64,000 nt of DNA from contig OX439040.1 of assembly GCA_949317995.1 (NCBI GenBank), positions 53,085,186-53,149,185 of the forward strand, read 5' to 3'. A program made the translations under genes and the position numbers. The notes beneath the pieces were generated by a model, which worked only from the letters and a program-made list of their open reading frames with translations, did not search any database and was not told the DNA's origin. The DNA comes from Acholoe squamosa (lineage: Eukaryota > Annelida > Polychaeta > Phyllodocida > Polynoidae). Shown one piece after another: positions 13,407 through 59,119 of this stretch (positions are counted from its first letter, which is position 1; each line of letters opens with the position of its first letter).

Positions 13407-16355
13407 TTAAACGGATTTCTTAGCATGCTTCTTCTTCAGAAGAGCTAAAGCCGACTCGGGAGTGCCGTCCCACTCGTCCAAGTCGACTCCGAACACCCTC
13501 ATGAACTTAGTGTTCAGGTTGGTGTTCCGAGTGATCTCCTCCTTTACACGCTTTTCCAACACGTGTACATCCATAGCTGCTTTTTCTTGAGCAGCTGAGG
13601 CAGCCTCCTCCTGGGCCTTTACATCGTCCCGGATGAGAGTCTCGAGACGTTGCTTTTCAGCGTCGCCCACCTGTTTCATACACAACAGAGTTTCGTTTAG
13701 GAGACCCTGATGAAACTCGATCGCTTTCTCACGAACGGTCTTCTCCCAATGGGTGTAGATGGCCTTCTGGACATCTGCCTCCCCTTGGCGAGACTTCTCA
13801 AACCAAACTTCCGCATTACCAGTTTTAATGGTAATGGCGTCCTTTGGTTTCTCAGGTGCCGAGACAGCCTTGGGAGGAGTCGAGGCGGCCTGTGGACCAC
13901 TTCCGGGTTTAGGACTCCCGGACACACCTGTCGTTGGTACACAGAAGGCAGGTGGTACATTCTGTTTCAGTCCCATTTGCAGGTACATGTTTAACTGCTC
14001 CTGGGTAAAGGTAACTGGTGGGGCGGCTGGAGCGGATGCAGATCCGGCGGCAGCAGATGCGGTGGTCTTCTTTGGCATAAGGCGACCATCCTTTCCTACC
14101 ACCAAGGTCTGGCTCTCAGGTCCAGGTCCCTGGTTTAAGGACGGAAAGTTTCGAGAACTCACTTTCCCAGGTTTAGATACGGCTCCAGCGTATCCGGCAG
14201 GTTCAGGCTTCTTGAACACCGGAGTGCCCTGAGCCTGTTCTGCGGGGTGCCTTGTCAGAGGGGACCTGGAACGGTCCTCTGCTCTGACCTTCGGTTTTGT
14301 CGTGCTCTGACCATTACCATTGCCGCCACGGTTCTGGTCTCTCCTGCTCCTTTCACGAGCTCTCTTTGCATCCTTTCCGGATTCCTCGCATTTCTGCCAG
14401 AGAGACTCGTGCATGTCCAGTTTACCCTTTCCAGGAGTCAGGACTATCTTTGCTCGGAGTTTCGAATCCTTGGTCTTCGGAACTTCGCAGAGGACTTGGT
14501 CCCCTGGTCGGATCTTAGACCAAGCATCCTCGCTCAGGCTATCGAACTCCTTCATGAGTTCCTGATGAAGCTCCATGATGCGCTTCCGGGCCCCGTCCAA
14601 ACCTTCTGCGTGGCATTTCTTCTGGTGTCTAGCCAGATCACTACGTCGGTTGTATTGCACCTTCGTAGTACACTTCTTGCCCTTCTTACCATAACTCGGA
14701 TCACAAATGTAAACCGGGTGATGGTGGAAGTGGGCCTCTACCAGATGCCTTTGGAACCGGGCTGGAGTACTCCAGGTCCGGATCGAGACATCACTCGCAT
14801 CCTGGCAGATAGAGAAGGGACAGGACTTTTGATCGTCACCGTACCACTTCTCTAAAGCCCAACGCAGCTTCCTCCTCTGGGTATAAGTGTAATACCCTTC
14901 GGTGTGGTTTAGCATAAGCCACATCTTTCGATAGGCTTTGCTCGGATTGGGGTCCTCGTCCGAAAGGCGCATCCAATCTTCATCATCCGACTCATCGTTC
15001 TTATTGATTGAGTCTGGACAGGCATAGAGGGTAGAGCCGTCCTTCTTAACTCCGTACGCACAGTCGGAGAAACACGTCGGGATCCGGGTTTTGAATCCGG
15101 ATTTGGCGTTAGCCCAACGTTCGGCCTCGGTTTGAGTTGATGGAGTGGCCTTCTCATCATACTCAACCGAGGATTCGTGCACCGACTCCTCGTCAGACGA
15201 CTCAACCTCCATGGCAGTACTACCAGTGGTTGAGGTGCTGGGTTTCGGCTCGGCTCTCGCAGAATCCGGGAGATTCTTGAGCTTCCGAGCAGCGGATCGT
15301 CGGTTCTTACTGACCTTCCAGTCTTCCTCCGGTTCCTGGGTTCCGGATGTGCTGGAGGTCGTGGCTTCTACTGGAGTAGTAGTGCTGCCGGTAGCTGATG
15401 TAGCACTGGCGGAGCTTCTGGTGGCAAGCTTCAGGTCGGGGATAGGAGGTGCGGGTGCTTCCGCGGCCCTCTTAGCCTCTTCCTGTGCCTCCTGTTCGGC
15501 AGTCATGCGGCGGACAATAACCGTCCGAAGGGCTGCAGCTCGGTCCAATCCGATTAGTGAATTGTTCTGGACATCCACCAATTCCTGTTCGGTTATGTAG
15601 TAACCGTCGTCCCACTGCTCGAAGTTAGCAGCGGCCTCCCGAAATTCCTTAGTGGTCCGGCACGGCGTCCGGATAGCACTAGGGCGTGGGTAGGTCTGGC
15701 CATCGGTATCCCAGACACAGCCTACCCAGTTAATGTTCGTAGCCTTGACGTTCCACAGGGACTTGTCAGGCTTCGGATACGCTCCGAGCTCGAAGGCTCG
15801 GTTGGCTGCGTACACGGTTTCACGGAAACCGGCGTCCACCATAAGTCCCCGTTGGAACCACGGCCAGTCTCGAAGCCACTCGGGAGGCATCCTGGTCAGC
15901 TGTTCGGGAGCCATGACGCCCTCGATAGCTATCCTGACTTTCGGGTCCATCCTGACTGGTGTCCCGTCCGCGTAGGTCACTTGTGCCTGCAGTTCCGGGT
16001 GGACATACAGGTAGCGACCATCATAGCTAGCTGGAAAAGGCTCCGCCACTGCTGGCTTCCACTCATCCTTCTGTCCGTCAACTTGGGTAGTTTCGGACTC
16101 TGTCGCTGCGGGTTCAGCACTCGCAGTCGCTCCGGATCCCTCTGCTGGGAGTGGAGATAGCAGTTTCTCTGGCTCATTGAGTGAGAATGAAGCCAGCTTC
16201 TCCTCGAACGAGCGATCCGTGGGTTCCTCCACGTCCATCATCTCGCTCTCTTCCTGTGTAACAGGCGACAAAGCTTCCGGAAAAGCTTCTGCGGACGGAG
16301 TCAGCTTATCCGGGTCACCGGATAGCTTGGCTGCAGCTACGGATTCCTCAGCCAT
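13407..16355 (-). CDS. ORF3: 982-residue zinc-finger protein of the Ty3 element
   Basis: I chose the ATG at 16355; the frame is open six codons further to a GTG. Numbering from that GTG, the N-terminal 100 residues are acidic and Ser/Glu-rich. A folded-looking aromatic-rich region spans about 105-300. A low-complexity Ser/Thr/Ala stretch follows (310-420). A Cys/His region covers about 434-588, with Cys residues at 434, 438 and 452, then two C2H2-like fingers (518-548 and 557-588, the second ending RSDLARHQKKCH). A basic Arg/Gly segment (665-705) and a predicted helical C-terminus (880-960) follow. No signal peptide or membrane segment exists, so it is not an envelope protein. It lies 509 bp downstream of pol, within the LTRs and upstream of the polypurine tract. 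Its codons look GC-richer than those of gag and pol. Function is unknown; nucleic-acid binding is a reasonable inference. Confidence 0.9.
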   Translation of the reverse strand: MAEESVAAAKLSGDPDKLTPSAEAFPEALSPVTQEESEMMDVEEPTDRSFEEKLASFSLNEPEKLLSPLPAEGSGATASAEPAATESETTQVDGQKDEWKPAVAEPFPASYDGRYLYVHPELQAQVTYADGTPVRMDPKVRIAIEGVMAPEQLTRMPPEWLRDWPWFQRGLMVDAGFRETVYAANRAFELGAYPKPDKSLWNVKATNINWVGCVWDTDGQTYPRPSAIRTPCRTTKEFREAAANFEQWDDGYYITEQELVDVQNNSLIGLDRAAALRTVIVRRMTAEQEAQEEAKRAAEAPAPPIPDLKLATRSSASATSATGSTTTPVEATTSSTSGTQEPEEDWKVSKNRRSAARKLKNLPDSARAEPKPSTSTTGSTAMEVESSDEESVHESSVEYDEKATPSTQTEAERWANAKSGFKTRIPTCFSDCAYGVKKDGSTLYACPDSINKNDESDDEDWMRLSDEDPNPSKAYRKMWLMLNHTEGYYTYTQRRKLRWALEKWYGDDQKSCPFSICQDASDVSIRTWSTPARFQRHLVEAHFHHHPVYICDPSYGKKGKKCTTKVQYNRRSDLARHQKKCHAEGLDGARKRIMELHQELMKEFDSLSEDAWSKIRPGDQVLCEVPKTKDSKLRAKIVLTPGKGKLDMHESLWQKCEESGKDAKRARERSRRDQNRGGNGNGQSTTKPKVRAEDRSRSPLTRHPAEQAQGTPVFKKPEPAGYAGAVSKPGKVSSRNFPSLNQGPGPESQTLVVGKDGRLMPKKTTASAAAGSASAPAAPPVTFTQEQLNMYLQMGLKQNVPPAFCVPTTGVSGSPKPGSGPQAASTPPKAVSAPEKPKDAITIKTGNAEVWFEKSRQGEADVQKAIYTHWEKTVREKAIEFHQGLLNETLLCMKQVGDAEKQRLETLIRDDVKAQEEAASAAQEKAAMDVHVLEKRVKEEITRNTNLNTKFMRVFGVDLDEWDGTPESALALLKKKHAKKSV

Positions 16356-16864
16356 GACTGGGGAATCGCCCACGGGAGTAAACTACTCCTTTTTCCGGCT
16401 TTTACGGCGCCAGGGCCGGCACAAACGGAGTCTGTCTACCAGGAGACAGACTCTGGAGGAGCAGCGGGGGGTTTGCTTAGCCGGTAAAATCCAAGAAGGG
16501 AGCGAGCTCGACCGTCTTGAACGTTACCGAAAACAAATATGGCGACAGGCCAGCTTTCGTGACGTCATTTCCCCGCGGTCCGCGAGGTCACGAGAGGTCA
16601 GCCGAGACTGGACACGGTGACGTCATGCGGAAACGCACGTGCTACAGGCGGTACATCAACAAACTGATTGTTTTTAGGTAATTATCGCTCACCCCGATGA
16701 CTCGACTGGGGATTTAAGTGGAGATTATGGAAAGCTTAAGCAAATCCACCGGATTATCCGTCCACTACCCATTGGTACATCATGCGGGGGCGACAAATAA
16801 GCCTTTAGGGTCAGTTGTCATCCGTTCCTCTAAATGTAAACATTACACTCGTTGTGTATACAGG
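16356..16864 (-). promoter_or_regulatory. CpG-rich leader of ORF3 with two CRE palindromes and a hairpin
   Basis: The 509-bp spacer between pol and ORF3 carries two perfect TGACGTCA octamers (16560-16567 and 16618-16625), the binding site of CREB/ATF factors, 205-270 bp upstream of the ORF3 ATG. Nearer the start, GAGTCTGTCT (16428-16437) and AGACAGACTC (16444-16453) form a perfect 10-bp stem with a 6-nt loop. CpG density is high around 16540-16640. This suggests a private promoter or structured leader for ORF3. A spliced RNA is the alternative; CCCCAG just upstream of the ATG could be a weak acceptor. Confidence 0.5.
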
Positions 16865-19800
16865 TTAGGTCACTGCAGTCCTCTGGGCAATTCGGGGGCT
16901 GCGGCGAACGTATCTCCCCTTCTCGGATAGTTCTTTATCGGACCTGACAGTCTGAAGAGCTTTCTCTAGGTGCTTCTTAGCCTTAGAAACACCTTTCCTC
17001 TTCTTTTTGTCTTCACCTGCCGAGACTTTTTTAACTCCCCCACGCTTAATCGGTGTTGGCGTGGGTGTCACTGATTCGGAACACTTTTTGGGTCTACCCT
17101 GACCACGCTTCACTGTAGTGTTCTTAACCTGGTCTATTATGCGATTCTGATTCAGGATCCTTTCGGAACCTTCACCATACATTTCTGTGGAGGTCTCCCT
17201 CCCAGACCATCTCCTTAATCTAGCCACATTTGACTTATAGAGTCGACCAAGGTCAGATTTAATAATTACGGTACAATCACTGATAATTTGTGTTATAGTA
17301 AAAGGACCGTCCCAATTAGACGCTAATTTTATGTGTCTAAGTGGTTCATGTAATCTGAGGACTCTGTCTCCGGATTGGAATTTCCGATGTTTTAGATCGG
17401 TATCGTATCCTACTTTCTGCCATTTGGCACTTTTCTCCAAATCAATTCGGACAGACTCATATGCTTTTCTAAATCTGTCTCTTAAACATTCCACAAAAAC
17501 TACATGGCAAGGTAGTTCAGGGTCCATTCCTACGACTCCAAAAACTAGGTCAGCAGGCATTATCAAATCTTCTCCGAATACTAAAAGGTTCGGAGAACAA
17601 TTTGTACTTGAATGTACCGTACTATTATAAGCATGTGTCACAAAATGACATTGCTCATCCCAGTCATCCATATGTTCATTAACGAGTGACTTTAGGACTT
17701 GGATGAGGGTTCTATTGAACCTTTCCACTAATCCGTCGCTTTGTGGTCTATACGGATTGGTTCTAGTCTTGCAAATAGCCAAGTATTCGCACATACCCTG
17801 CCAGAGATTTGATTCGAACTCTCTGCCTTGGTCACTGTGTAACATTAATGGTACACCGAAGCTTAGTACCCAACCTTTTACAAAAGCTTCGGCACAAGTA
17901 ATTGCTTTGTGGTCCGGTAGTGGAAATACTTTAGTGTATTTCGTATAATAATCACACACTACCATCATACAGGTATTATCATTAGCGGTTGTATTAAATC
18001 CACTAATAATATCTACCCCGATTCTTGCGAATCTAACTCCGAAAAGTTCTTGGGATAGGGGAAGTTTGCCCATCCCGGGTCCGGGTTTGTTTTTACAACA
18101 ATCCGGACAGGTGGTTACCCATCTTTGCAAGTCCCGTGTCATGCCAGGCCAATAGTATTTCTTGGAAAGTCGTGCTAGCGAGCGTTTCCTTCCGAAATGA
18201 CCACTGGTCCGATGTCCATGACAGAAGTACATAATGTCATGTCTCATGGCATGTGGTATCACCACTTGCATGATTCTATCACCATTATTACATGGCTTCC
18301 AACGGTATAACACGCCTTTCCGGACTTCAAGCTCGGTCCATTGAGCAAGAAACCTTCTCATTTCTCGATTTTCCAGAGAGACCTCTGGTCTAACTGGACG
18401 TATACCCTTTGGCACTAATTGCAGTAGCTGTGCAGTTATCGAGTCAGCTTCCTGGAAATGTCGTATGTGATCCATAGACCAATCCAGTATACTGGCAACT
18501 AGGGGTACGAATGGTCTTCGAATCCCTGCTAACACTGCCTTATGAGCTCCACAATCAGTACAATCCGGATTATCACATTTCCGGATTGGTATTCGAGACA
18601 AAGCATCAGCATTTAAATGCTTAACTCCGGGTCTATGCTGAATCTGTTGATGTTCAAGCCCATATTCGGATAAATGGGCTAGCCATCGGCCTAACATGCC
18701 TTCAGCATCTCGGAAGTTCAGTAGCCACCTTAAAGAGGAATGATCCGTACGCAAAGTAAAGTTCGTTCCCCATAGAAAATGTTTGAACTTCTTGGTATAT
18801 ACGACTACTGCCAACAACTCTCTTTTGGTTGTGCAGTAATTGCGCTGAGTCTTGCTCAGTGTGTTGCTGGCAAAGGCAATTGGCACTTCTCTCCCATTTT
18901 GGACTTGCGAGAGAGCTGCACCAATGCTATCATTACTAGCATCAGTATCCAGTATGAAATGATCCGTCTCATTCGGATATTGCAATACGGGAGTACTCGT
19001 GAACAGGTCTTTTAGCTTTCGAAAAACATTTTCCTGTTCATGTGTCCAAGGAAATTTTTCCTTGGTACTTCCTGGAGTCCAGTTAGCTATTGCTTGTAAT
19101 GGGTAACTGACTCTAGAATAATTCGGAATAAATTCCCTGTAATAGGAACAGAATCCTAAAAAGGACCTCACTTCTTTGGGTGTTTTAGGTCTATTCCAAT
19201 TCGTAACTGATTCGATTTTTTCCGGATCAGCCTTTATTCCTTCATCACTGATGATGCGGCCCAAATAATTTATGGACTTTCTAAACATGTGGCATTTCTT
19301 AGGTTTCAATTTGAGACCATTTGAAATAATACGTTCTAGTACCATTTTCAGGTTATTAGAACATTCTTCGAATGTTTTTCCGAAGACAATGACATCGTCT
19401 AGATATACAAGACATCTTTTCCACAATAAATCACTTAGAATTGTTTCCATCATTGCTTCAAATGTTGCAGGTGCATTGCACAATCCAAACGGCATTACAT
19501 TATATTGGAATAATCCAATATGACTTGAAAATGCAGTTTTCTCCATATCTGAAGGGTTCATTCCCACTTGCCAATAGCCTGATTGCAAGTCTAGGGTACA
19601 AAACCAACTGTTTCCTCCTAAGGAGTCAATGGTTTCATCTATTCTCGGTAATGGATACGAATTCTTTTTCGTTATTCCATTCAACTTCCTGTAGTCTATG
19701 CAGAAACGGATAGTACCGTCTTTTTTTGTTACCATACACACAGGACTACTCCATGGACTATTGGAAGGGACTATTACATCCTGTTCCAACATTTTATTTA

Positions 19801-21100
19801 TTTCATCCTCAGCTACTCTCTTTTTTGCTAAGGGTAACCGTCGATACGGTATCTTAAAGGGTTCGGCATCTCCAGTATCTATTTTATGTAATACCTTATT
19901 TGTCGTACCTAGTTTTTCACCAGGTTTGGCAAAGGCAGTATGATACTGACAGAGCATATCATAGAACTCTTTCCGGTGTTCCGGATCTTCTAATGAAGTT
20001 TCTTCATACAACTTAAGTAAGTCTTCCGAAATTTCATCATCTCCTGTTACCTTCTGTAAGCTTAGCTTACTATCCGTTACAGTTTCCGAAAGGGTCACGT
20101 TTCCAAAAACTTGTCCCTTTTTCAAGTAGATAGTAGTGTTTCCAGTATTGGAGACAGGTACTACCGACCAGGATGCATTCGCTACTATCGTGTCTACAGA
20201 ATTTAATCCAATACCTGACAAAGTAACTACATCCGGTTCTATCACTGCAGGTTTGTTACGCATTGCAGGATCACTTCTTACAAGCACATCACAGGCTACT
20301 CCCGGAGGGGTTCGCACAGTGTGTGCCACACTAGCCATACTGCTCACTTGTCTCAGTGCACATCTAACCTTCACGGGGTACGGGTATCTCACACTCAACA
20401 CTCCTGTTTGGGGTTCCAATACAGCACCATACAGGGATGCGAAATCCAACCCGAGTATCCCCTCATCTGCTATATCCGCAACGGTGGCGCTCATGACATA
20501 GTCATGTATACCATCTAACTGTAGTCTCACACAAGTTCTACCATACGTTTGCAAGGTACTGCCGTCGGCCGTCTGAGCACTTCCTCCCGATTTGAGAGTA
20601 TCATGTTCATCCGGTATAAGGTCGTAGAACCCCTTGGAGATACAAGAGTGGCTAGCTCCCGTATCCACAAGGAATTCGGCAGACCTTCCGTTAACAGTAA
20701 GGCAAACATACCACCGCCTTCTGTTTAGAACAGAGGGCATGTCCGTGACAATCGGAACGTCATTTTTCACACCAGGAGTCAATCCACATCCTTTTAAGAA
20801 TTCCAGACAAGGATGACCCGGGGGCAGGTGGGCACCACAGACCTTGGCTAACGAATAGCCGCCTGCCTCGTTACTGATATTGGGTTTCCCCTGTGCTCCC
20901 ATAGCACCTGTTATATCAGCTTCCCTAACCTTCCGGGTGTCTACAACCACCTCGGTGTTAGGCGATCTTGTTACTTCATGTGAACTATCATCACAGATGG
21001 TGATATCATGGCAAGATTTGTCACTGGGATCCCCTTCTTTGCCCCTCGGGAGACCCCTCCTTAGTTTTCCTCTGTACTTACTCCAGAGACACTCTCCTGT
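16865..21100 (-). CDS. pol: Pol polyprotein: protease, reverse transcriptase, RNase H, integrase
   Basis: Residues are numbered from a GTG at 20950, but the frame is open up to 21100, overlapping gag in the -1 frame, so a Gag-Pol fusion by frameshift is likely. The aspartic protease motif LVDTGAS is at 94-100. The reverse transcriptase spans about 365-560 with YLDD at 516-519. RNase H follows (Asp668 in ILDTDAS, then Glu711 and Asp736). The integrase has an HHCC zinc motif (His911/918, Cys948/951) and a catalytic Asp980, Asp1040, Glu1076 with the usual 35-residue spacing. The integrase-last order and the motifs identify a Ty3/gypsy polymerase. All catalytic residues I can check are present. 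The C-terminal tail is Lys-rich with an AT-hook-like GRPKK; no chromodomain is evident. Confidence 0.95.
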   Translation of the reverse strand, partial: TGECLWSKYRGKLRRGLPRGKEGDPSDKSCHDITICDDSSHEVTRSPNTEVVVDTRKVREADITGAMGAQGKPNISNEAGGYSLAKVCGAHLPPGHPCLEFLKGCGLTPGVKNDVPIVTDMPSVLNRRRWYVCLTVNGRSAEFLVDTGASHSCISKGFYDLIPDEHDTLKSGGSAQTADGSTLQTYGRTCVRLQLDGIHDYVMSATVADIADEGILGLDFASLYGAVLEPQTGVLSVRYPYPVKVRCALRQVSSMASVAHTVRTPPGVACDVLVRSDPAMRNKPAVIEPDVVTLSGIGLNSVDTIVANASWSVVPVSNTGNTTIYLKKGQVFGNVTLSETVTDSKLSLQKVTGDDEISEDLLKLYEETSLEDPEHRKEFYDMLCQYHTAFAKPGEKLGTTNKVLHKIDTGDAEPFKIPYRRLPLAKKRVAEDEINKMLEQDVIVPSNSPWSSPVCMVTKKDGTIRFCIDYRKLNGITKKNSYPLPRIDETIDSLGGNSWFCTLDLQSGYWQVGMNPSDMEKTAFSSHIGLFQYNVMPFGLCNAPATFEAMMETILSDLLWKRCLVYLDDVIVFGKTFEECSNNLKMVLERIISNGLKLKPKKCHMFRKSINYLGRIISDEGIKADPEKIESVTNWNRPKTPKEVRSFLGFCSYYREFIPNYSRVSYPLQAIANWTPGSTKEKFPWTHEQENVFRKLKDLFTSTPVLQYPNETDHFILDTDASNDSIGAALSQVQNGREVPIAFASNTLSKTQRNYCTTKRELLAVVVYTKKFKHFLWGTNFTLRTDHSSLRWLLNFRDAEGMLGRWLAHLSEYGLEHQQIQHRPGVKHLNADALSRIPIRKCDNPDCTDCGAHKAVLAGIRRPFVPLVASILDWSMDHIRHFQEADSITAQLLQLVPKGIRPVRPEVSLENREMRRFLAQWTELEVRKGVLYRWKPCNNGDRIMQVVIPHAMRHDIMYFCHGHRTSGHFGRKRSLARLSKKYYWPGMTRDLQRWVTTCPDCCKNKPGPGMGKLPLSQELFGVRFARIGVDIISGFNTTANDNTCMMVVCDYYTKYTKVFPLPDHKAITCAEAFVKGWVLSFGVPLMLHSDQGREFESNLWQGMCEYLAICKTRTNPYRPQSDGLVERFNRTLIQVLKSLVNEHMDDWDEQCHFVTHAYNSTVHSSTNCSPNLLVFGEDLIMPADLVFGVVGMDPELPCHVVFVECLRDRFRKAYESVRIDLEKSAKWQKVGYDTDLKHRKFQSGDRVLRLHEPLRHIKLASNWDGPFTITQIISDCTVIIKSDLGRLYKSNVARLRRWSGRETSTEMYGEGSERILNQNRIIDQVKNTTVKRGQGRPKKCSESVTPTPTPIKRGGVKKVSAGEDKKKRKGVSKAKKHLEKALQTVRSDKELSEKGRYVRRSPRIAQRTAVT
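21061..21100 (-). promoter_or_regulatory. gag/pol overlap with candidate -1 frameshift site
   Basis: The pol frame opens after a TAG at 21101-21103 and the gag frame ends at TAA 21061-21063, a 40-nt overlap in the -1 frame. The heptamer G-GAA-AAC (21070-21064) lies right before the gag stop. AAC to AAA slippage in the A site is standard; the P-site change GAA to GGA is not ideal, so the exact site is uncertain. Confidence 0.5.
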
Positions 21101-23958
21101 CTACGAGGGACAGGTTTTTCAGCCATACATTCTGGAGCATAATGCCCCAGTTTCTGGCATCTGAAACATCTCCTCTGAGATTTGTCAACTCTCTGTCTCT
21201 TTAGAGCTTCTGTTAATCCGGCTAATAATGTTTCCATCATGTTAGTCGGAGCAACAGTGGCTGCTACAGTTGGGTTCGCCGTAGAGGCTACACTGCCAGG
21301 TTGAGTTGATCCGGAAGCTGTTTTACCAGCAACTGATCCTCCTCTCCCTCTCGAATGTACTTTCCTATACCGCTTTTGTCGGTAATACTTTCCAGCTACA
21401 TGCACTGAACCAATATAATCTCCGTTTTCATCGGAGACATATTCATCTTTCTCATCAACTTCATTCGATTCAACCGGAGCTAATTGGGAAGTATCGTATA
21501 CCGGAGCAGGTGTACCTCCGTATTGGAATGGAGCTGCTCTTATTGGATTAGGTCCGAGACCTACCAGACGTTTCTTCATGTCATGTCCATCGATTGCTAT
21601 GAACAGATCACTGAAGGAAGTGTCATCTTTCCAAGAGTCCCAGACCACTTGCTTGTGATCCGGATCACGCAATCCACTGTAGAATTGTATAAACAATTCT
21701 TGTAGATAACAATCATCATCATGAGCCCAATTTGGACGTGCTTTCGAAAGCAAGTCCTGTAGCTCCAAACCAAAGACTTTGTGTGATTCTTTAGGTTTTT
21801 GTGTCCTCTTCTTAAAGCTTACCCACGGATCTTCTCTAACGATTGATCCGAAAAGGTATGCGGCACATTCGACCAATTGATCATAGGTACCATATATTCC
21901 GTAAGCTGCTCTCCATTGGTTGAGAGCTACTTTTCCGCCTTTATTTAACCAACAAATCAAATATGGCAGAGCTTCTTCTTTTGTCCAGCCACTACAATTG
22001 ACTTCGTCAACAAAAGCTTGATACCTGTCCTTCCATGGATCATTAGAATCATATGGAGGGGGTATCCGTGCCTGCCTACGTGCCGGATTATTACATCCGC
22101 GTAGTCTATCTGCTTCTCGCATGCTCCAGTTCATGACTTCCATGCCGTCTGCTCCCTTTCGGTAGCAGTCAATGCCAAGGTTTTGTATACATTGGCTTCT
22201 ATCAAAAATGGTTTGCATCCCTGCAGGCATAGAAGTTCTCCTGTTAGGTTTCCTGCCATCTCCTCCTGATCCTGATCCTCCGAATCCGGATCCTCCTGGG
22301 CCGCCTGGAGGGTTTCCTCCTGGTGGACCATTATTATTATAGCCTCCAGATGAACCACCAGGCCATCCACTATTGTGACCGGTGTTTCCAGAAGAAGCGT
22401 GTCTAGGGTAAGAATCATTTTGATTCCATCCCTGGTTATAGCTATTACCATTCTGATAATTGCCACTTCCCGATGGATTATAATTATTTCTATATCCATA
22501 GGAAGATGTTCTCGGTTGGTACGTACCGCCGTTGATATTGTTTTGTGGCGGATTTGGTCTCGGAAAACGTCCATCAGTAGGACCATTACCAGAACCTGGG
22601 GGTGGATTCGGTAATCTTGGTACTGCTGGTGTACTGTGGCCGGGTTGGGGGAAATATGAAGGTGGTGTCAACATATGTCTCATTGGTCCGGGTGCTCTTG
22701 GTTGTGCCACGGGTGAATTATTATTATTCCCTGTAGCACCATCGTGAGTCGCTTTGATTTTGTGACTCAAATCTGGTATGGGTGGTGCTGGACCTATCGT
22801 ATCTAGCATTGGAACTACTGGTTTAGATGCGGTTCCATTTACTGCAGCATTATCCGGTTTCTTATAGATTCCGGATACCACATTCTTGTCAGCCCCATCA
22901 TCAACGAATGGGCTGTATCTAATTGGGGTTGCGTCTTTAGATGTCTTTCCCAACATTGTAGATACCACAGCTGGGTCTATATTACCTATAGTTAACTGGG
23001 CTGCTTCTACATATTTATCTAGAGTTATTGCAGTGGCCTGCAATTCCTGAAGCTCATTCGTGAGTTTCTGTCTATCCTCCTCTAGTTGTCTGTTGTAAGC
23101 TATGATGCCTACCCGGATGGTTTCATTGTCTTCAGCTTGTTTACTGCACTGAAGTTTCAATTTATCCAACTCATCCTGATAATGGCGAATTTCGGATTCG
23201 AATTTTGTCTTATCAAGGTTTAGTTGGTCGTTCGTATCTATGTATGTTTGGATACGAATGTGCCTATTATCATATTCTTTATTGAATGATTCTCTCATAG
23301 ATTGAAGTTTTAGTTCTTCATTCTCGAGTTCTTTCATGTACTCGCTCCTTCTGGCTTCGAATTCCTTTCGCATGCCAGTTAGGTCCTCTTCCATCTGAAG
23401 TTTTTCATGCAATACTTCATCCTTAGCTTTGACCAAGGTATTTAAATTCTCGTTCAAAGTTACATAAGTTTCATTCAACAACAGGACATCCGGTCGTTTT
23501 AATTCTTCACCTTCCGGTACCGCATAGGTTAAGTCGCCATCTATAGCGCTATAATCTAATATTGGTAATTCGGGCCTGGGTAACCTATAAGGTAGTTCTC
23601 CGAATGTTACCCTTTTTCGCATTGGTGCCGGATGTTCTGGGTTAGTACTACCACCGACTTCGAACATCGAATCACATAATTCGTCAACAATTGAATGCTG
23701 GCCTATTAAGTTACTATGTCTCTGTATGGACTGTTCGCGTCGTACAGAGTCTGGCAGATTCTCTTCACTATCATTATAGTGGGGTCCGGGATCTCTCCAA
23801 GATGCTGATTCTGCATCTTGTGAGTCCGAATGGGCTTGGAGCATTAGCGATCCATTTCCATTCTCTTGGGCAAGTGATTGCCCTGCTGGGTTAGCTTCCC
23901 TAAGGGTGTCTAACCCATGTACTAGCCGTTCGGACGTTATAACGTCCGGGCTATACAC
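21061..23958 (-). CDS. gag: Gag-like protein with coiled coil and CCHC zinc knuckle
   Basis: The frame is open from a stop inside the LTR U5, across the primer-binding site. The first in-frame ATG is at 23844 (residue 39 of the frame as numbered from the GTG at 23958), so initiation there or at a non-AUG codon is undecided. About residues 168-312 form a long charged coiled coil. A Pro/Asn/Gly low-complexity region covers about 410-590. A capsid-like segment around 620-800 includes a WTKEEALPYLICWL helix. The nucleocapsid knuckle CFRCQKLGHYAPEC (931-944) fits Cx2Cx4Hx4C. At up to 965 codons it is two to three times longer than typical Ty3/gypsy Gag. The coiled-coil N-terminal half is unusual. 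It precedes pol by a -1 overlap. Confidence 0.9.
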   Translation of the reverse strand: MYSPDVITSERLVHGLDTLREANPAGQSLAQENGNGSLMLQAHSDSQDAESASWRDPGPHYNDSEENLPDSVRREQSIQRHSNLIGQHSIVDELCDSMFEVGGSTNPEHPAPMRKRVTFGELPYRLPRPELPILDYSAIDGDLTYAVPEGEELKRPDVLLLNETYVTLNENLNTLVKAKDEVLHEKLQMEEDLTGMRKEFEARRSEYMKELENEELKLQSMRESFNKEYDNRHIRIQTYIDTNDQLNLDKTKFESEIRHYQDELDKLKLQCSKQAEDNETIRVGIIAYNRQLEEDRQKLTNELQELQATAITLDKYVEAAQLTIGNIDPAVVSTMLGKTSKDATPIRYSPFVDDGADKNVVSGIYKKPDNAAVNGTASKPVVPMLDTIGPAPPIPDLSHKIKATHDGATGNNNNSPVAQPRAPGPMRHMLTPPSYFPQPGHSTPAVPRLPNPPPGSGNGPTDGRFPRPNPPQNNINGGTYQPRTSSYGYRNNYNPSGSGNYQNGNSYNQGWNQNDSYPRHASSGNTGHNSGWPGGSSGGYNNNGPPGGNPPGGPGGSGFGGSGSGGDGRKPNRRTSMPAGMQTIFDRSQCIQNLGIDCYRKGADGMEVMNWSMREADRLRGCNNPARRQARIPPPYDSNDPWKDRYQAFVDEVNCSGWTKEEALPYLICWLNKGGKVALNQWRAAYGIYGTYDQLVECAAYLFGSIVREDPWVSFKKRTQKPKESHKVFGLELQDLLSKARPNWAHDDDCYLQELFIQFYSGLRDPDHKQVVWDSWKDDTSFSDLFIAIDGHDMKKRLVGLGPNPIRAAPFQYGGTPAPVYDTSQLAPVESNEVDEKDEYVSDENGDYIGSVHVAGKYYRQKRYRKVHSRGRGGSVAGKTASGSTQPGSVASTANPTVAATVAPTNMMETLLAGLTEALKRQRVDKSQRRCFRCQKLGHYAPECMAEKPVPRRQESVSGVSTEEN

Positions 23959-42790: not shown

Positions 42791-43583
42791 GGTCTCTTTC
42801 TATCAAACGTCTTATTCTTCTCAGCTGCGCAAGTCTGGTATATACAAGACCAATTACCTTATTAGCCTGACTCACAAAAGATAGATGTGTGTCTAGGTTT
42901 ATGCCTAAGTAATTAAATGTCTGTACAACATTTATTTTTACATTATTCAACAGAATGTCGCATCCAATCAAATTGGGTATTTTCTACTGTGAATAATACC
43001 ACATAATTTTTTTTTCAGTGTTTACAGTCAATCTGTTAATTTGACACCATATGAAGATATTATTAATACCATCTTGTAGTAAGGTTTTAACCATCAGAGG
43101 ATCCTTGTGTGAAACAACTATTGCTAAGTCATCTGCATAGAGATAAAATTTAGCATGCTTTATATATCTCACAATGTCATTTATGTATATATTAAACAAA
43201 AGCGGGCCGAGCACACTTCCTTGAGGTACTCCACAGGTAATGTCTTGTTCTGATGATAAATAATCATTTGCTAGTGTTGTATGTTTCCTATTGGTCAGAT
43301 ACGATCTTAGCCAGTATAGCATTTTCATACTACACCCAATATTATTCATATTTTCCAGGAGAGGGCCATGATTTACAGTATCAAAAGCTTTGCGAAGGTC
43401 GAGGAAAAACACAGCACTAACAAACTGTCTATTTCGAGACGCATTTAATTCTTGTACCAAGTAATAAGTTGCCTGTGTTGTTGATCGACCAAGCATGAAC
43501 CCTAACTGGTTTTCACTGATGACTTTATTTTTCAACAAAATATTCATTAAATCACCATGGACTGACTTTTCAACCACCTTACT

Positions 43584-43928
43584 CAGGGGCGTAGGAAAAG
43601 GGAGGGGCCAGGGAAGAGTGAGTGAGTAATAGTTGTTTAACGCCATTTCGACAGCTAAGGTCATATTCATGGCGAGAACTAAATTACACAATTTCACAGA
43701 GGAAAGTGACAGTGCCCGCACATATGTGCACCACACACATCCAGAGGGGATAGGAAAGAGGAGATATAGACCCTTTTAAGTGGGCTAGGGAAGCCCTGGG
43801 CCAAGGGGGCCTGCCCCCCCCCCAATAATGAAGAGGTTCCCTATATAAGCCTATATAAAAATATAGCTGGCCCCCCCAACCGAGACCCCTGGGCCCCCCC
43901 CAATAAAAATTTGCTTCCTACACCCCTG
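43584..43928. mobile_element. hAT-like MITE inserted in the LINE, itself holding a SINE
   Basis: Ends CAGGGGCGTAGGAA and TTCCTACACCCCTG are inverted with one mismatch. ccttac occurs at both borders as remains of the target duplication and restores the reverse transcriptase reading across the insertion. About 165 bp remain when the SINE is ignored. Confidence 0.8.
43618..43796 (+). mobile_element. SINE-like repeat, copy 3
   Basis: Standard family body (gtgagtgagtaatagttg to gggctagggaagccc). The duplication is eroded: gggcca on both sides. Confidence 0.82.
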
Positions 43929-52510: not shown

Positions 52511-53292
52511 TTATCAGACATTCAATATTTTTAATATAACTGTAAAGATCATTGTGCTCAATTTGAGATAATTAGAAATAAAAGGGTCCTAAAAAAATAT
52601 GCATGGATTTTTGGGTAGCAAGTTAAATGGGTTCAAAGTATTAGGTGAGGTATTATTAGATAAAGGGGTGAAGGGTAGGTCATAAAGATACATTTTTTTT
52701 ACCTTACACTTTGTTCCAATACCTACATGGGCTTTTGAGATGAACCTTATCTTATCAATTACAATTACAATTTTATTTTACAATTTTATTTATTCACATC
52801 CTCATCAGAGGTAAAGGAAAGAAAATAAGAAAAGAAATCAGCTCTAGCCGATACTTACAATGGCTTCACTGAGTTACAAGTGTATAAACATTACAAGTGT
52901 GATAATAAGTTTACATATAAATGAATGCAAATACTTGAAACAGAAAAAGATCAACTTAGTACCTGACTATGTACATTTGAAGTAGGACACAAAAGTACTA
53001 CTGATAATACTTCATCCAGTGGATGTGAGGGCCAGGCAAATCTGGCAGTACCAATAAAATAAGTTGAGATTCTCGGTCTCCAGCACCGATGAGCACCATG
53101 TTGACTATAGTAAACGGTGTGAAGACGGTATGAGGTATAGGAGCACCACACAAACTACCTAATTTGACTAGTGTGTCCTAATGACAATATAAAGTACAGT
53201 ACACAACTCTAGCTATCCAACTTTTATCTATCCACCATGGTAAGATTGACAGGTCAATATGCGATGAAACAGTTACACTATGCTTTGGGCTA

Positions 53293-55477
53293 TTATTGCG
53301 TAGACTTTTTCCTTCTTGCCTGCTTTTTATTGTTCTTTTTTGCTGGGGCTATCCTCTTCGTGGGTCTGAATTTTTCCATGACAATTGCACAAAATTTGGA
53401 TAAGTGTGTAAGAACAAAGGGGTTTTTGTTATTAAAAAGATCCACCATAGCCACCCTACTTGGTCGTGGTGGTATATTATTGGCAAGAAGTAATGCTCGA
53501 TCATGGTCAAAAGCTGGACAATGGAAAACGTAATGGAATTCATCCCCAATGTCATCACTCTTGCATAGGGGGCACTTTCTTTTGGAATACTCAATACCAG
53601 CGTATCTCCCAGTTACCACCGGAAGACGATGATTTCCACACCGGAATCTACACAAAGGGATTGAATACTTTTGATTAAGGTTAAGCAGATATGGTTCAAG
53701 ATTGAGCTCAGTTTTGAAAATTCTGTAATTGTAACAGTGTCCAGAGCCCATTACACTACTGTGCCAATCCTGATATTCTATGTCAGTGAGTCGTCTTTTA
53801 ACTTTGGCTTTTAACAAGTTATGTGGTATATTAGTAGCAGCATGCCCAAGAAGATTGCCAAGTCCATTTTGATCCATACATTTCTGGACATATGTGAGCC
53901 ACTGTGACTGTAGGCTACCATTAGTCTGCTTACCATGCACAATATTATACAATATAAGAGATATCTTGCTTGTTTTCCCTGTAACAATCTTGTGCCAGAA
54001 ATTAATTACCCTCTGTTTTACCAAACAACTTAGCCTGGAGCGACCAAGCTCTCCTAGTGCAACACAGTTGGCTGTGCGGCCATTCAATTTTAGAATAAAT
54101 TTACAAAAATAGCTCTGGACATGTTCAATCTCACTTAAGTCTGAGAAACCCCATACTTCACAGCCATACAATAGTATTGGGACAATGCAAGAATCAAATA
54201 GGTGGCACTGTATGTCAACTGGTAGTTGAAGTTTTCTTGACTTTGATAGTAGGCTGAACAAGGCCCGCTTAGCCTGTGTGACTTGCTTCTTTATAGCTTG
54301 GGGGAATTTTCCATTAAAATTGAATTCTATACCCAGATATGTGTAACTATATTGTACTTCAAGCTGCTCATTCTGGTAAAACAGTTTGGGTAGTTTCTTT
54401 ACCTTTCCCCTAGAGAAAATCACTACTTTTGTTTTTGAGGTATTTACATCAAGTTTCCAATCATGGCAATACTTCTGCAGCACATGAAGCATGTCTTGCA
54501 GATCCTGGGCTGACTCACTAAGTAGAATTGTGTCATCGGCATACAATAACATATAAAGCTTCAGAAGCGCTTGAGATTCAGGATCAGTACCTAAGGAGCT
54601 AATACCTTTGCAGTGATTTTGAAAATGAATTTCCAGATCATTCAAGTAAATTGCGAAAAGGAGTGGGGAAAGATTCTCCCCTTGTCTTACTCCAATGTTG
54701 CAGCTAAAATACTCAGATAGGCAGTTGTCAACCCGGATGCAAGATTTTGCAGCCTTGTACATGTTCTTAATAACAGTAAGTACCTTGCCATCAATATTAG
54801 TTTTAAGGAGTTTCAACCACAATGATGACCTGTCCACAGTATCAAATGCCTTCCTATAGTCAACAAAGGCACAAAATAACCTTTTTTTCTGGGAAAGAAA
54901 TAGTTCAGTTATACAGTGCAAGTTAAATATGTGATCAAGCGTGGAGTAACCTTCTCTAAATCCTGCTTGCTCTTCTCCTAACATATTGTTATGTTCCAAG
55001 TAAGTGCGTAGGCGTAAATCTAGTAACATAGTGAACAACTTTCCCATGCAACTAAGTAGAGTTATACCTCTGTAGCTGTCAGGATCGTTAATATTACCCT
55101 TATTCTTATATATAGGTACTATAACACCAACAGACCAGCTCTCGGGGACAATACCAGTATCTAGCACCAGATTGAAATAGCCACAGATCACAGTTAAAAG
55201 AGAACGAGGACTGTTTTTCAAAAACTCATTAATAATGGAGTCATTTCCCGCCGCTTTCCCATTTTTTAGTCTCTTTACCACTGCCTCAATTTCTGCGACT
55301 GTTACTGGCTTGTTAAAGGATAAATTACTAGCCTCAGGCAGCAGGCCCCCATGATCAGTCCTTAAACCATCATCGTCAGTATTTGCATACTCATAAGGTG
55401 CATTCGTTACCACATTCAGGCTTTCAAAGTGGGTCTTGAAAGAGTCAAGAGAGATTAGGGCACTCTTGCTTTTCGAA
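53293..55477 (-). CDS. LINE ORF2, reverse transcriptase part
   Basis: Numbered from the in-frame codon at 55413. Reverse transcriptase landmarks are GNDSIINEFL (57-66), the PIYKNKG motif (100-106), VDYRKAFDTVDR (184-195), GVRQGENLSPLLF (241-253) and catalytic YADD (291-294). The C-terminus has a Cys/His motif, RKCPLC..DEFHYVFHC, typical of many LINE proteins. It reverse-transcribes LINE RNA at a nicked target. The frame is open upstream of the first Met to the SINE boundary at 55477 and would join the endonuclease frame if the SINE and one duplication copy were absent. In this allele the reverse transcriptase is separated from its own start and is probably not made. Confidence 0.93.
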
Positions 55478-55659
55478 TGGGCTTCCCTAGCCCACTTAAA
55501 AGGGTCTATATCTCCTCTTTCCTATCCCCTCAGGATGTGTGTGGTGCACATATGCGCGGGCACTGACACATTCCTCTGTTAAATTATCAACCTGTGAAGC
55601 ACGGGATAGCCACTTAGTGCCGCTAGAGTGCTGTAAAACACAAATCAATCAATCAATCA
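55478..55659 (-). mobile_element. SINE-like repeat, copy 7, inserted in LINE ORF2
   Basis: 182 bp, flanked by a perfect 12-bp duplication, ttgcttttcgaa (55466-55477 and 55660-55671). The element starts (TGAT)n then gttttacagcactctagcgg, a different head from the (GTGA)n copies, but shares the 3' half (atgtgtcagtgcccgcgc to gctagggaagccc). It terminates the LINE ORF2. Confidence 0.9.
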
Positions 55660-57251
55660 TTGCTTTTCGAACCCTGGGCATTGTTAATGATCTTCCAGTA
55701 TTCTTTAGGGTTTGTACTTTTTACACCCCATAGCTTTGTAGTCAACTTACTGTGGTAGTTTGATATGGCAAGCCTTATGGTTTTCTTGTATTTCTTGTTT
55801 AACTGTTTTAACAAAAACTTATCTGCAGGGTCCTTGCCCATGGCATAGCGATTTTTTATCTTGAGCACTTCTTTTCGGGCTTTCTCACACTCCTCCGTGA
55901 ACCAGGGTTTTCTGGGCATTATGCGTTTCCGGTATGCACCTGTGCTATTATTTGTAGCCCTTCTGTGGGGTACAGTTTTAATAACACCGGTATGCTTACC
56001 ACTCTCCATGTACAGCTGGATGACCAACTTGGATATGTGGTCAATGTCTGCCTGGACTACTTCGGTACCTGACTCTTGCATGTTTCTGATAAGTGCATTT
56101 ATATTCCAAACAATATCCAGATCAAACGATTCTTTAAACACTGGACCCTTACCAACTTCCCAACATACTCTAGTGGAAGGCACTTGAAGGCCAATATCCC
56201 GAGTACAAGGCTCATTCTGTGTTACCACAGGTGGACTTGATGCAGAGAGCTCTAGAATGATAGGGGAATGCACATCTGATAGGCAGGAGTCAAAAGTACC
56301 AACAGAGAAAGTGTTTATAGAAGGAAACAACGATGCAGTTGCAACAGCGTAGTCTATAGTGCTCGCACCTTTACACGTAAATTCAGCCGATCTTTTGCCA
56401 AATCTACCGTTTACAAGGAGGAGGCCCGCACTTATGCAGAGGTCAATAAGCTTCTTACCATTTAAGTCGAGCTTCTGGTCAGTCCACATCCTTTCTACTT
56501 CTATACCCAGCCTCCTCATAGCAGTAGTGTCTAAGTAGATTTCACTTGCAATGTCCTCCAAACCTGTTTCATGTTGTACATGTTTACCTGGTTCTGTAAA
56601 GTCATGTGCACTTCCAGTCCTTGCATTAAAGTCACCGACCAGACATATTTCACAATCAGCATCAAGACTTTGTATATTGATAAGGTCAGACAGTATGCTT
56701 TCAAACTCCTCACTTGTGCTGTAGGGGGAGTCTGAGGGGGGAATGTAAACGGTTCCTAAAATGAGGTTATATCCTAAGATTATTGGTTCTAGTCTTAACC
56801 ACTGGACAAATTCATTCTCACTAGGTTTGACGGGGCTAACATATTTTGCTATTTCATTTTTGAAAAATGTAGCTATGCCCCCTGACTTCCTCGAGAATTT
56901 CTCCCTATGATGATAAAACGGGGTAAAACCTTCTATGTCTATATTTGCCTCATCAAGAGCATCAAGCTTTGTCTCTGATAGGCTAATGACATCAAAGTTA
57001 TCATAAATATAGTCTTCTAGTACTGCATAGTTAAGCTTCGAGATAAGGCCACAGACGTTCAGTCCTAGGATTCGCAGGTGTTGGACTTGACATTTGATAT
57101 CCACATTGGAAATAACCTCTGGGCTGACTAACAAGAGTGGATGTGGCTCAGCTCCTGGAGCTCTGCAGAAACTGTTTGAGGGTGGGGTTTTAGAGAAACC
57201 ATGCCCATGGGGTGATGTTAACGGAGTAACATCATTGGGACTTGTCCCCAT
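55653..57251 (-). CDS. LINE ORF2, APE endonuclease part (truncated by SINE)
   Basis: Chosen start is the ATG at 57251; it overlaps the end of ORF1 by 34 nt in another frame. Counting from a TTG five codons upstream, the AP-endonuclease fold shows Asn70 (LNVCGL), Glu98 (SETKLD), YIPP (174-177), Asp212 and Asn214 (GDFNART), and a late SDVHSPI. These are the catalytic residues of APE-type LINE endonucleases, which nick the target DNA. The protein runs about 530 residues, then the SINE supplies two foreign codons and a stop. The endonuclease itself looks complete. Confidence 0.93.
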   Translation of the reverse strand: MGTSPNDVTPLTSPHGHGFSKTPPSNSFCRAPGAEPHPLLLVSPEVISNVDIKCQVQHLRILGLNVCGLISKLNYAVLEDYIYDNFDVISLSETKLDALDEANIDIEGFTPFYHHREKFSRKSGGIATFFKNEIAKYVSPVKPSENEFVQWLRLEPIILGYNLILGTVYIPPSDSPYSTSEEFESILSDLINIQSLDADCEICLVGDFNARTGSAHDFTEPGKHVQHETGLEDIASEIYLDTTAMRRLGIEVERMWTDQKLDLNGKKLIDLCISAGLLLVNGRFGKRSAEFTCKGASTIDYAVATASLFPSINTFSVGTFDSCLSDVHSPIILELSASSPPVVTQNEPCTRDIGLQVPSTRVCWEVGKGPVFKESFDLDIVWNINALIRNMQESGTEVVQADIDHISKLVIQLYMESGKHTGVIKTVPHRRATNNSTGAYRKRIMPRKPWFTEECEKARKEVLKIKNRYAMGKDPADKFLLKQLNKKYKKTIRLAISNYHSKLTTKLWGVKSTNPKEYWKIINNAQGSKSND

Positions 57252-59119
57252 GGGCTCTGGCCCCAACCGCCGGGCACCATCGCCTGCCAGCTGGGGTGGG
57301 ACGGCTGTAGCCCAACATTATAGACAATGCCAGGTCGAGCAGGGATACTAGGTGATAATTGACCGAACCCACTCTGTAGCTGTGCAAAAGGCATTTGCGG
57401 GTAGGTCATCTGACCTAGGTTTAATGGTTGGACATAGGGCAGTACTTGTGTAAGCCCCGTAACCCCAGTAAAGGTTGGCTGCAAGATTTGGGTCTGGACT
57501 TGTGGTAGGGTAGGGCTAGAAGTATTACTATCCTTGTCCTTGGTTGCTGTTCCCTGGTTGCTCTGGTTTGGCTGGGAGGCTTGGGCCTGAGCTTGTGGCA
57601 CTTGATGTAGGGCAGGGCTAGGGTCATTACTATCCCTATCCTTGTCCTTGTCGGACGACTTCTGGTCGCTTGTGCATGTCTGGGGGGCTTGGACCTGAGC
57701 TTGTGGCTCCTCCTCATCTTTTAGGCGTACAAATGTTTCTTTCATGAGTTGTTGCAACTCATCCATGCTCATTTGCTTTTCAAAGGCCACGGATGGAGAT
57801 GGTTTTGGGGTAGAGGCCTGAGGGACCTTCTTGGCCTTGGCCTGCCCTCGACTGGGTTGCGTTGGATAGGCACCCTTATTACTGTGACCAGTAACATCCT
57901 CTTCAGATTCTAGTTCTGAGAATCTATTGCTGACCGGTATCGGGACAGCCCTCGGGTGATTCTGTGAGTTTTGGCCACCCTTTAGTTTATTGTGCACAGG
58001 GGCTGACCAGCCATTTCCTCCAGCAGGGACTTGGCGGGCCGTTTTCTGATGGGCCACTGTCACTGGGTTATTTGCTGCCTCCTCTCCTGAGATCACAATC
58101 TTCAGATTACTTGCTACTTGCTTCAAACCTGGCTGACGAAGATGCAATTTGTCCTTCTTAAGCCTACTGGGCAGGTATTTGAAAGTGGAATTGTGGTCCA
58201 CAAAACACACCCGCTCTGAATGCAGTGACTCCAAGAAATCATTGAAGTTGTCAATACGGTCATTAAGGTTCAGGTGCGCCTTGTCATAGCGATGGAGTAT
58301 TCCTGAGAGCACCACCTTTGTGTCCTGGTTGTAGAACAGGATGTCACTAACCAATGCCTGGTATTCAGACTTCATGCTGTAGAAATATCCCTGTTCCACA
58401 TTATTCGTCCCACAATGGACGATGACATACTTAGGAGTTTTCCCTTGTAGCACATTCGCTATGCGGCGCCGGACACCCTTGATGTCTGCACCGGGGTTGA
58501 CATCTACAAAGGCCCGGACATCTCCCATGCACTGGTCAATGCCTTGCAGCATTGAGTCTGAGAGGATAATCACGTCAGTTCCAGCAGGGGTGCTTGGCAC
58601 AGTGCACGCACTTGTGTGAGCTGCAGTTGTTTGGGTTGTGCCGGCTGTAGGGGCAGCAGGGGGGATGAGGCTGATCTTTCGAATCTCTTCCCTGACGTTC
58701 TGGAGAGTGACTCCCATGAGGTTTACCCCTTTACCATCTCTGCCAAATCCCCAGCATGAGTCCGTCTCCATGTTGTGGATGAGTTGGCTGGTACCAGTGG
58801 CCTGGAGGGCGTCATAGTACTCCCATGACTGCTGTGCCCGAATTGTTCCTATGTGCAACATGACTTCCCCTTTCATGTTGTCCCAATCACTGGAAGGCTT
58901 GGGTACCTTTTTTTGTGTGTACGCCTTTGCCATGCCAGCATGTTTTAGCTTCCTCATTTCTTCAGCTTTGTCATCGAGCCCATGCTGCTTCAGCTTGTTG
59001 TAGCAGTACAGATGCTCCTGTGATTTAAATGACAGGCCCTTGTCTGTCAAATGGCATGGGTAGTGGGTGGAGAGTATATTCTTCCACCCTCTGAAGTAGA
59101 TGACATTATTGCTACTGTA
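57218..59119 (-). CDS. LINE ORF1: NADAR-type domain fused to an SGNH esterase-type domain
   Basis: Numbered from a TTG at 59050; the frame is open to 59119 (TGA at 59120-59122) without an ATG, and these extra codons (VIYFRGWKNILS) complete the domain start, so the N-terminus is truncated, non-AUG or spliced. Residues up to about 125 match the NADAR/YbiA family: SQEHLYCYNK (10-19) and DSCWGFGRDGKGVNLMG (97-113). Residues about 158-320 form an SGNH hydrolase-like domain with SDS (164-166, nucleophile Ser166), GTNN (214-217) and DKLH (Asp300, His303). The rest is Pro/Gln/Ser/Lys-rich. Esterase ORF1 proteins are known in CR1/L2 LINEs; NADAR proteins include hydrolases of ADP-ribosylated guanine. 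The fusion is unusual. Functional roles here are inference. Confidence 0.85.
   Translation of the reverse strand, partial: YSSNNVIYFRGWKNILSTHYPCHLTDKGLSFKSQEHLYCYNKLKQHGLDDKAEEMRKLKHAGMAKAYTQKKVPKPSSDWDNMKGEVMLHIGTIRAQQSWEYYDALQATGTSQLIHNMETDSCWGFGRDGKGVNLMGVTLQNVREEIRKISLIPPAAPTAGTTQTTAAHTSACTVPSTPAGTDVIILSDSMLQGIDQCMGDVRAFVDVNPGADIKGVRRRIANVLQGKTPKYVIVHCGTNNVEQGYFYSMKSEYQALVSDILFYNQDTKVVLSGILHRYDKAHLNLNDRIDNFNDFLESLHSERVCFVDHNSTFKYLPSRLKKDKLHLRQPGLKQVASNLKIVISGEEAANNPVTVAHQKTARQVPAGGNGWSAPVHNKLKGGQNSQNHPRAVPIPVSNRFSELESEEDVTGHSNKGAYPTQPSRGQAKAKKVPQASTPKPSPSVAFEKQMSMDELQQLMKETFVRLKDEEEPQAQVQAPQTCTSDQKSSDKDKDRDSNDPSPALHQVPQAQAQASQPNQSNQGTATKDKDSNTSSPTLPQVQTQILQPTFTGVTGLTQVLPYVQPLNLGQMTYPQMPFAQLQSGFGQLSPSIPARPGIVYNVGLQPSHPSWQAMVPGGWGQSPWGQVPMMLLR

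Follow-up and report, generated by a model that had tools for sequence, protein, structure and literature searches.

A NADAR domain joined to an SGNH esterase-like domain in the ORF1 protein of LINE families from the annelid Acholoe squamosa

What use might a retrotransposon have for a NADAR domain in its ORF1 protein (ORF1p)? The question is raised by a locus of the annelid Acholoe squamosa that lies within 64,000 nucleotides of contig OX439040.1 (assembly GCA_949317995.1, positions 53,085,186 to 53,149,185), the stretch analyzed here and referred to as the window. On its minus strand, a frame open from stop to stop (57218..59119) encodes a NADAR domain, an SGNH esterase-like domain and a P/Q-rich tail, and forms part of the first open reading frame (ORF1) of a long interspersed nuclear element (LINE). 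As a preliminary description of this DNA had stated, the frame is single and uninterrupted, running for 633 codons from 59119 down to a stop at 57218; the longest frame in 300 single-base shuffles of the stretch was at most 242 codons, so this length is not due to chance. The same description read the frame as a LINE ORF1 fusing NADAR to SGNH. This reading is supported, except that the frame is an incomplete ORF1: in another genomic copy, L003/L033, ORF1 comprises 1077 residues, of which ∼440 lie ahead of the part kept in the window.

The NADAR domain corresponds to residues 4–150 (58670..59110, minus strand; 633-residue numbering) and scores 67.3 bits against the Pfam profile PF08719, well above the cut-off of 35.1. 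Both signatures named previously are present, the first being SQEH (E35, H36) with K42 and the second WGFGRDGKGVNLMG (W123, N133), and the domain matches the YbiA fold in the predicted structure. It is followed by the SGNH esterase-like domain (residues 179–352; 58064..58585, minus strand), identified by Pfam and phmmer, with S189, G210, N239, D323, and H326. This domain scores slightly below the Pfam Lipase_GDSL_2 cut-off of 32.9 (32.5 bits, 1.5e-7), and its counterpart in L033 slightly above it (33.2). It aligns with the esterase of the ZfL2-1 ORF1p (4c1b; phmmer E 2.1e-8), with all of the S, G, N, and D/H blocks found. The GTNN (N239) and DKLH (D323, H326) motifs noted earlier fall inside the aligned region, but the serine given as Ser166 is S189 in the present numbering. 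In the structure model, which was built from an alignment of NADAR relatives only, the predicted local distance difference test score of the SGNH part is below 50 over residues 162–201 and 238–350. The remaining P/Q-rich tail (57221..58063, minus strand) has no Pfam match. The sequence shows full-length ORF1p to begin with a low-complexity region containing a coiled-coil-like stretch, which is followed by the NADAR domain, the SGNH esterase-like domain, and a low-complexity tail. The coiled coil is a likely prediction; the helical hydrophobic moment of one N-terminal stretch of L033 was reached by 33 of 2000 shuffles, and that of another by 1146 of 2000.

Downstream of ORF1 and on the same strand lie an endonuclease and a reverse transcriptase, the arrangement of a LINE. 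The first part of ORF2 (55653..57266, minus strand) contains the endonuclease frame (Pfam Exo_endo_phos, 1.8e-8) and the second (53293..55413, minus strand) the reverse transcriptase (Pfam RVT_1, 3.9e-35) together with a C-terminal Cys/His region recognized by eye. A genome search gave at least 74 matches (70 of 1662 candidates scored). These define at least 16 family places, and possibly more, from 21 rows of at least 92% identity and one row of 89% that belongs to a place already counted. NADAR and at least part of SGNH are spanned at nine of the 16 places, including the window; parts of SGNH or of the tail occur alone at six, and a short piece alone at one. The partial copies start at differing residues, which fits the 5′ truncation typical of LINEs. 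The window element is a decayed member of a LINE family with young copies, 92–98% identical. In L033, both ORF1 and ORF2 (1276 residues in one frame) are open; L032 and L033 are the only loci in which the whole ORF2 of the family is covered. A second family, represented by L021, has the same layout with an ORF1 of 717 residues and an ORF2 of 1221, and is 42%–43% identical to the window family in NADAR, SGNH, and endonuclease, with the C-terminal tails of L033 and L021 being 19% identical. The NADAR-SGNH ORF1 is therefore a family feature and not an accident of one locus, since other copies and other families retain the domain.

How widely NADAR occurs in such elements was assessed by a Pfam search of the genome, which returned at least 150 matches, all above the cut-off (150 scored of 3224 candidates). 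The best two among those scored (L009:1486-2151 and L010:1336-2076) probably represent NADAR genes of the host itself; the 9.9 kb examined around each contains no match to an endonuclease or reverse transcriptase. Such matches were present in 27 of the 37 other loci with a NADAR frame (a count that includes two second cuts of the same places), and every one of the 27 has one or more of them on the same strand as NADAR. The ten loci without a match comprise six with just ∼1.5 kb of flank, together with L025, L028, L029, and L039. Three kinds of LINE can be distinguished. Kind (a), with NADAR followed by SGNH, includes the window family, L021, L023, and relatives. In kind (b), represented by L038, L037, and L017, NADAR precedes an SGNH-related domain (profile E ∼5e-7 for L038 and L017 and 9e-5 for L037; hhalign probability 97%) that by eye retains Ser, Gly, and Asp/His, without the Asn. 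Kind (c) has a Glu-type NADAR C-terminal to a stretch that weakly resembles the RNA recognition motif (RRM) of LINE-1 (E 0.14–0.31). Its ORF1s (L036:1297-3780, L040:208-1548, L041:901-2613, and L042:3094-4890; only the NADAR side is visible in L043) are perhaps of the same kind as the published oyster elements discussed below. ORF2 follows ORF1 directly in kinds (a) and (b) and after a gap of 0.5–2.3 kb in kind (c).

Two further arrangements were observed. Repeated open reading frames of ∼326–340 residues have SGNH first and a His-type NADAR second (L028:2535-3512, L029:2509-3486, L039:1080-2057, and L073:3-1010). L028, L029, and L039 share their 3′ end, after which comes an A-rich run; they contain no match to a LINE endonuclease or reverse transcriptase, and may be non-autonomous retroposed elements bearing just the SGNH-NADAR pair. 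An open 780-residue frame in L025 (4960-7299) combines a His-type NADAR with a long RG-rich tail; it has no SGNH match and no endonuclease or reverse transcriptase match within 9.9 kb, and is perhaps an orphaned or adopted ORF1.

NADAR probably entered LINEs more than once, to judge from the trees. From 63 loci with a sufficiently long NADAR match (partial NADARs being excluded), eight second cuts or near copies were dropped to give a tree of 55 rows, which does not include L073, a locus identified afterwards. Ten His-type rows, corresponding to kind (a), L025 (which lacks SGNH), L028, L029, and L039, form one side of a branch supported at 97/84. Kinds (b) and (c), with Glu at the third position, group with the two host NADAR genes at 98/95. 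In an 11-row reverse transcriptase tree, in which the L041 row is half empty, kinds (a) and (b) fall together at 100/99, separate from kind (c), which joins at 97/98 a LINE fragment at 42984-43736 of the window that has no known NADAR. Two NADAR types are thus present in two LINE lineages. These trees do not fix how many gains there were: both have midpoint roots, and the viral and bacterial rows, retrieved by pattern with the His-type alignment (25 and four loci, respectively), do not represent NADAR diversity. The presence of NADAR in unlike LINEs points to a shared pressure.

Is the domain maintained by selection, and could it be an enzyme? Synonymous sites have reached saturation in the comparison of L033 with L021 (proportion of synonymous differences, pS, 0.74–0.82; 0.81 for NADAR). 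The corresponding nonsynonymous proportion, pN, is 0.40 for NADAR, 0.42 for SGNH, 0.40 for the endonuclease, and 0.29 for the reverse transcriptase, compared with 0.61–0.62 for the flanking low-complexity parts. With pN close to that of SGNH and the endonuclease and well below that of the flanks, NADAR has been retained as firmly as those two domains since the families split. The active site of the P. nicotianae NADAR consists of E43, K50, and E125, for which mutants were made in the E. coli C7 enzyme (PMC11543638), and E35, K42, and H115 of the window domain align with these positions. Whether Glu, Asp, or His occupies the third position depends on the subfamily, with His in phage gp30.3 (PMC11125620); His115, in the last strand of the window domain, is of the phage type in the alignment. 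Among 18 transposable-element NADARs less than 80% identical, Glu is present in 17 (the exception being L020, a decayed copy), and Lys or Arg, Glu or His, and Asn in all 18. Over all 24 such rows, Glu is kept in 23 and Lys or Arg in every one, where the mean majority share across the 146 alignment columns is 0.44. This retention of active-site positions across the 18 makes NADAR enzyme activity plausible.

Taking the two domains jointly, the explanation we favor, tentatively and with somewhat less than even confidence, is that the NADAR of ORF1p erases ADP-ribose from guanine in LINE nucleic acids and that the SGNH domain docks at membranes, in opposition to a presumed guanine ADP-ribosyltransferase. 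LINE ORF1p coats the RNA of its element. Here, while packaging LINE RNA, it could remove ADP-ribose by hydrolysis from guanines of this RNA, of cDNA, or of target DNA, so that translation or reverse transcription would not be halted by a modified template. Docking of the particle at membranes might fall to the SGNH domain, a role suggested for ZfL2-1, whose esterase binds acidic phospholipids and has weak activity (PMC3905857). According to the accessible text of one study, NADARs are the only hydrolase family found to reverse ADP-ribosylation of guanosine bases in RNA, and the T4 phage NADAR acts on such RNA, more weakly than the DarT1-linked E. coli C7 enzyme (PMC11833690). The same text reports them inactive on the phosphate-end RNA ADP-ribose made by PARP14, and the expected opponent is consequently a putative guanine-specific transferase. 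The earlier suggestion of protection from host PARP-type modification is therefore unsupported in the form in which it was made. PARPs, which give 37 exon-level domain matches in the genome, are not expected to be the opponents. Guanine-N2 ADP-ribosylation activity on DNA has been described in six edible clams (PMC11209040), and so guanine transferases exist in some invertebrates.

Several observations weigh against this explanation. A six-frame search of the genome gave no DarT match, the pierisin/CARP type known from clams not having been covered by that search. The Trp of the WG motif is changed in eight of the 18 transposable-element NADARs and kept in ten, as it is in the window family. 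Phage and YbiA NADARs have in vitro activity, yet E. coli gained no protection from DarT1 through them; only the C7 and EPEC (enteropathogenic E. coli) enzymes conferred it (PMC11125620), which means that in vitro activity need not amount to protection. Finally, constraint on NADAR is slight among eight young copies (pN/pS 0.79; 15 nonsynonymous and six synonymous variant codons), with SGNH at 0.20 (nine and 11, respectively). Broken copies are common among these eight, making the test weak, yet it lends the proposed function no help. We regard as rather unlikely the wider proposition that guanine-ADP-ribose erasers were taken into the ORF1p of LINEs of this genome on two or more occasions, as a counter-defense against an undescribed host system that ADP-ribosylates guanine in retroelement RNA or cDNA. 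The two recruitments would be a His-type NADAR with SGNH in one reverse transcriptase lineage and a Glu-type NADAR behind the weakly RRM-like stretch in another.

The domain could instead be an RNA- or ribonucleoprotein-binding module, recognizing an ADP-ribose-like group or an RNA end without need of catalysis and replacing the RRM of other ORF1s. A Pfam scan of three NADAR-SGNH ORF1s, those of the window, L033, and L021, detected no RRM, and in nematodes NADAR domains occur within an RNA complex as part of SNA-3, a protein of trans-splicing (PMC9303266). Against this, 17–18 of the 18 families retain the active-site positions, and in kind (c) the NADAR adjoins a weakly RRM-like stretch and so would replace nothing there. 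Moreover, changes in SNA-3 at residues equivalent to those of the YbiA N-glycosidase impair or abolish its function, although effects on folding were not excluded by the authors and one of the altered residues, a Trp, lacks an equivalent in YbiA (PMC9303266). We consider a purely binding role rather unlikely.

The other alternatives appear less probable. NADAR might clear a soluble signal or toxin of host immunity that derives from NAD or ADP-ribose, and so keep the cell permissive, a role proposed for phage NADARs (PMC9503650); tethering such an enzyme to an RNA-coating protein would be odd, and the NADARs of eukaryotic RNA viruses have been argued to act mainly on macromolecular ADP-ribosylation (PMC9503650), leaving this improbable. 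A passenger picked up by chance, as a fragment of a gene that does nothing for the element, would accord with the weak constraint among young copies but not with its retention between families at saturated synonymous sites or its occurrence in several LINE groups, and we think it very improbable. Least probable is an action on protein ADP-ribosylation or on chromatin, through PARP products, at the integration site: the genome has PARP-domain matches in number, as given above, but the reported inactivity of NADARs on the PARP14 product (PMC11833690) speaks against it.

The window copy itself is a 5′-truncated LINE of ∼6.35 kb, a length that counts an insert within ORF2 (52765..59118, minus strand), delimited by blastn against L032 and L033, to which it is 97%–99% identical across 55660-59118 and about 52770-55477. 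Its ORF2 is split by an insert of 182 bp (55478..55659, minus strand) that is absent from L032 and L033, is flanked by a duplicated 12-bp word, and carries TGAT repeats on one side; it looks like a short interspersed nuclear element. The 3′ end (52765..53292, minus strand), compared with those of L031, L032, and L033, carries short AATTGTA-type tail repeats common to all four copies. Inspection of the flanks by eye, without a systematic test, revealed no clear target-site duplication. The reverse transcriptase motif GVRQGENLSP is one we take to be RTE/RTEX-like; the second LINE fragment, at 42984-43736, has GVPQGSVLGP, unlike the LINE considered here. Elsewhere in the window (13407-23958), minus-strand frames resemble Ty3/gypsy, with FGLCNAPATF in a Pol frame and, by eye, a CCHC motif at the end of another.

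How does this compare with known systems? The view of the preliminary description that the fusion is undescribed is right in part. NADAR in a LINE ORF1 is already in print: YbiA-type NADARs have been reported in the Pol of gypsy elements of Ectocarpus and, through a search of Repbase, in the ORF1 of a number of Tx1 LINEs from Crassostrea gigas, with processing of RNA intermediates as the suggested role; the accessible part of that report mentions no SGNH fusion for the oyster elements (PMC12477816). Among the papers listed in a literature search, with most subscription papers outside its scope, none described a NADAR-SGNH ORF1 or the gain of NADAR by dissimilar LINEs within a single genome. 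The SGNH domain, with its S, G, N, and D/H residues beside an endonuclease and reverse transcriptase, resembles that of ZfL2-1 and other type IV ORF1ps (PMC3905857, PMC4120745), but in the window family a NADAR lies ahead of the esterase. ORF1 esterases are reported in CR1, RTEX, and Penelope elements (PMC3905857) and, in the accessible account of another studied set, in just two vertebrate groups (PMC4120745). With DarT1-linked antitoxins and phage gp30.3, the window NADAR shares the fold and the active-site Glu and Lys, and with the phage protein also His at the third position (PMC11543638, PMC11125620, PMC11833690). It differs from both in being fused into a retrotransposon protein, in a genome in which the search above found no DarT partner. 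SNA-3 likewise places NADAR domains in an animal RNA-handling protein but is a cellular trans-splicing factor with three of them (PMC9303266).

The question of what accessory domains do in LINE ORF1p is long-standing, and one study terms the function of NADARs in animals unclear (PMC11125620). A probable eraser enzyme fixed in the ORF1p of several LINE families makes both roles testable. That different kinds of LINE carry differing NADARs hints that such elements may need to undo modification of their own nucleic acids. Should the NADAR prove active, guanine-linked ADP-ribose may serve in some animals as a mark on the RNA or cDNA of retroelements.

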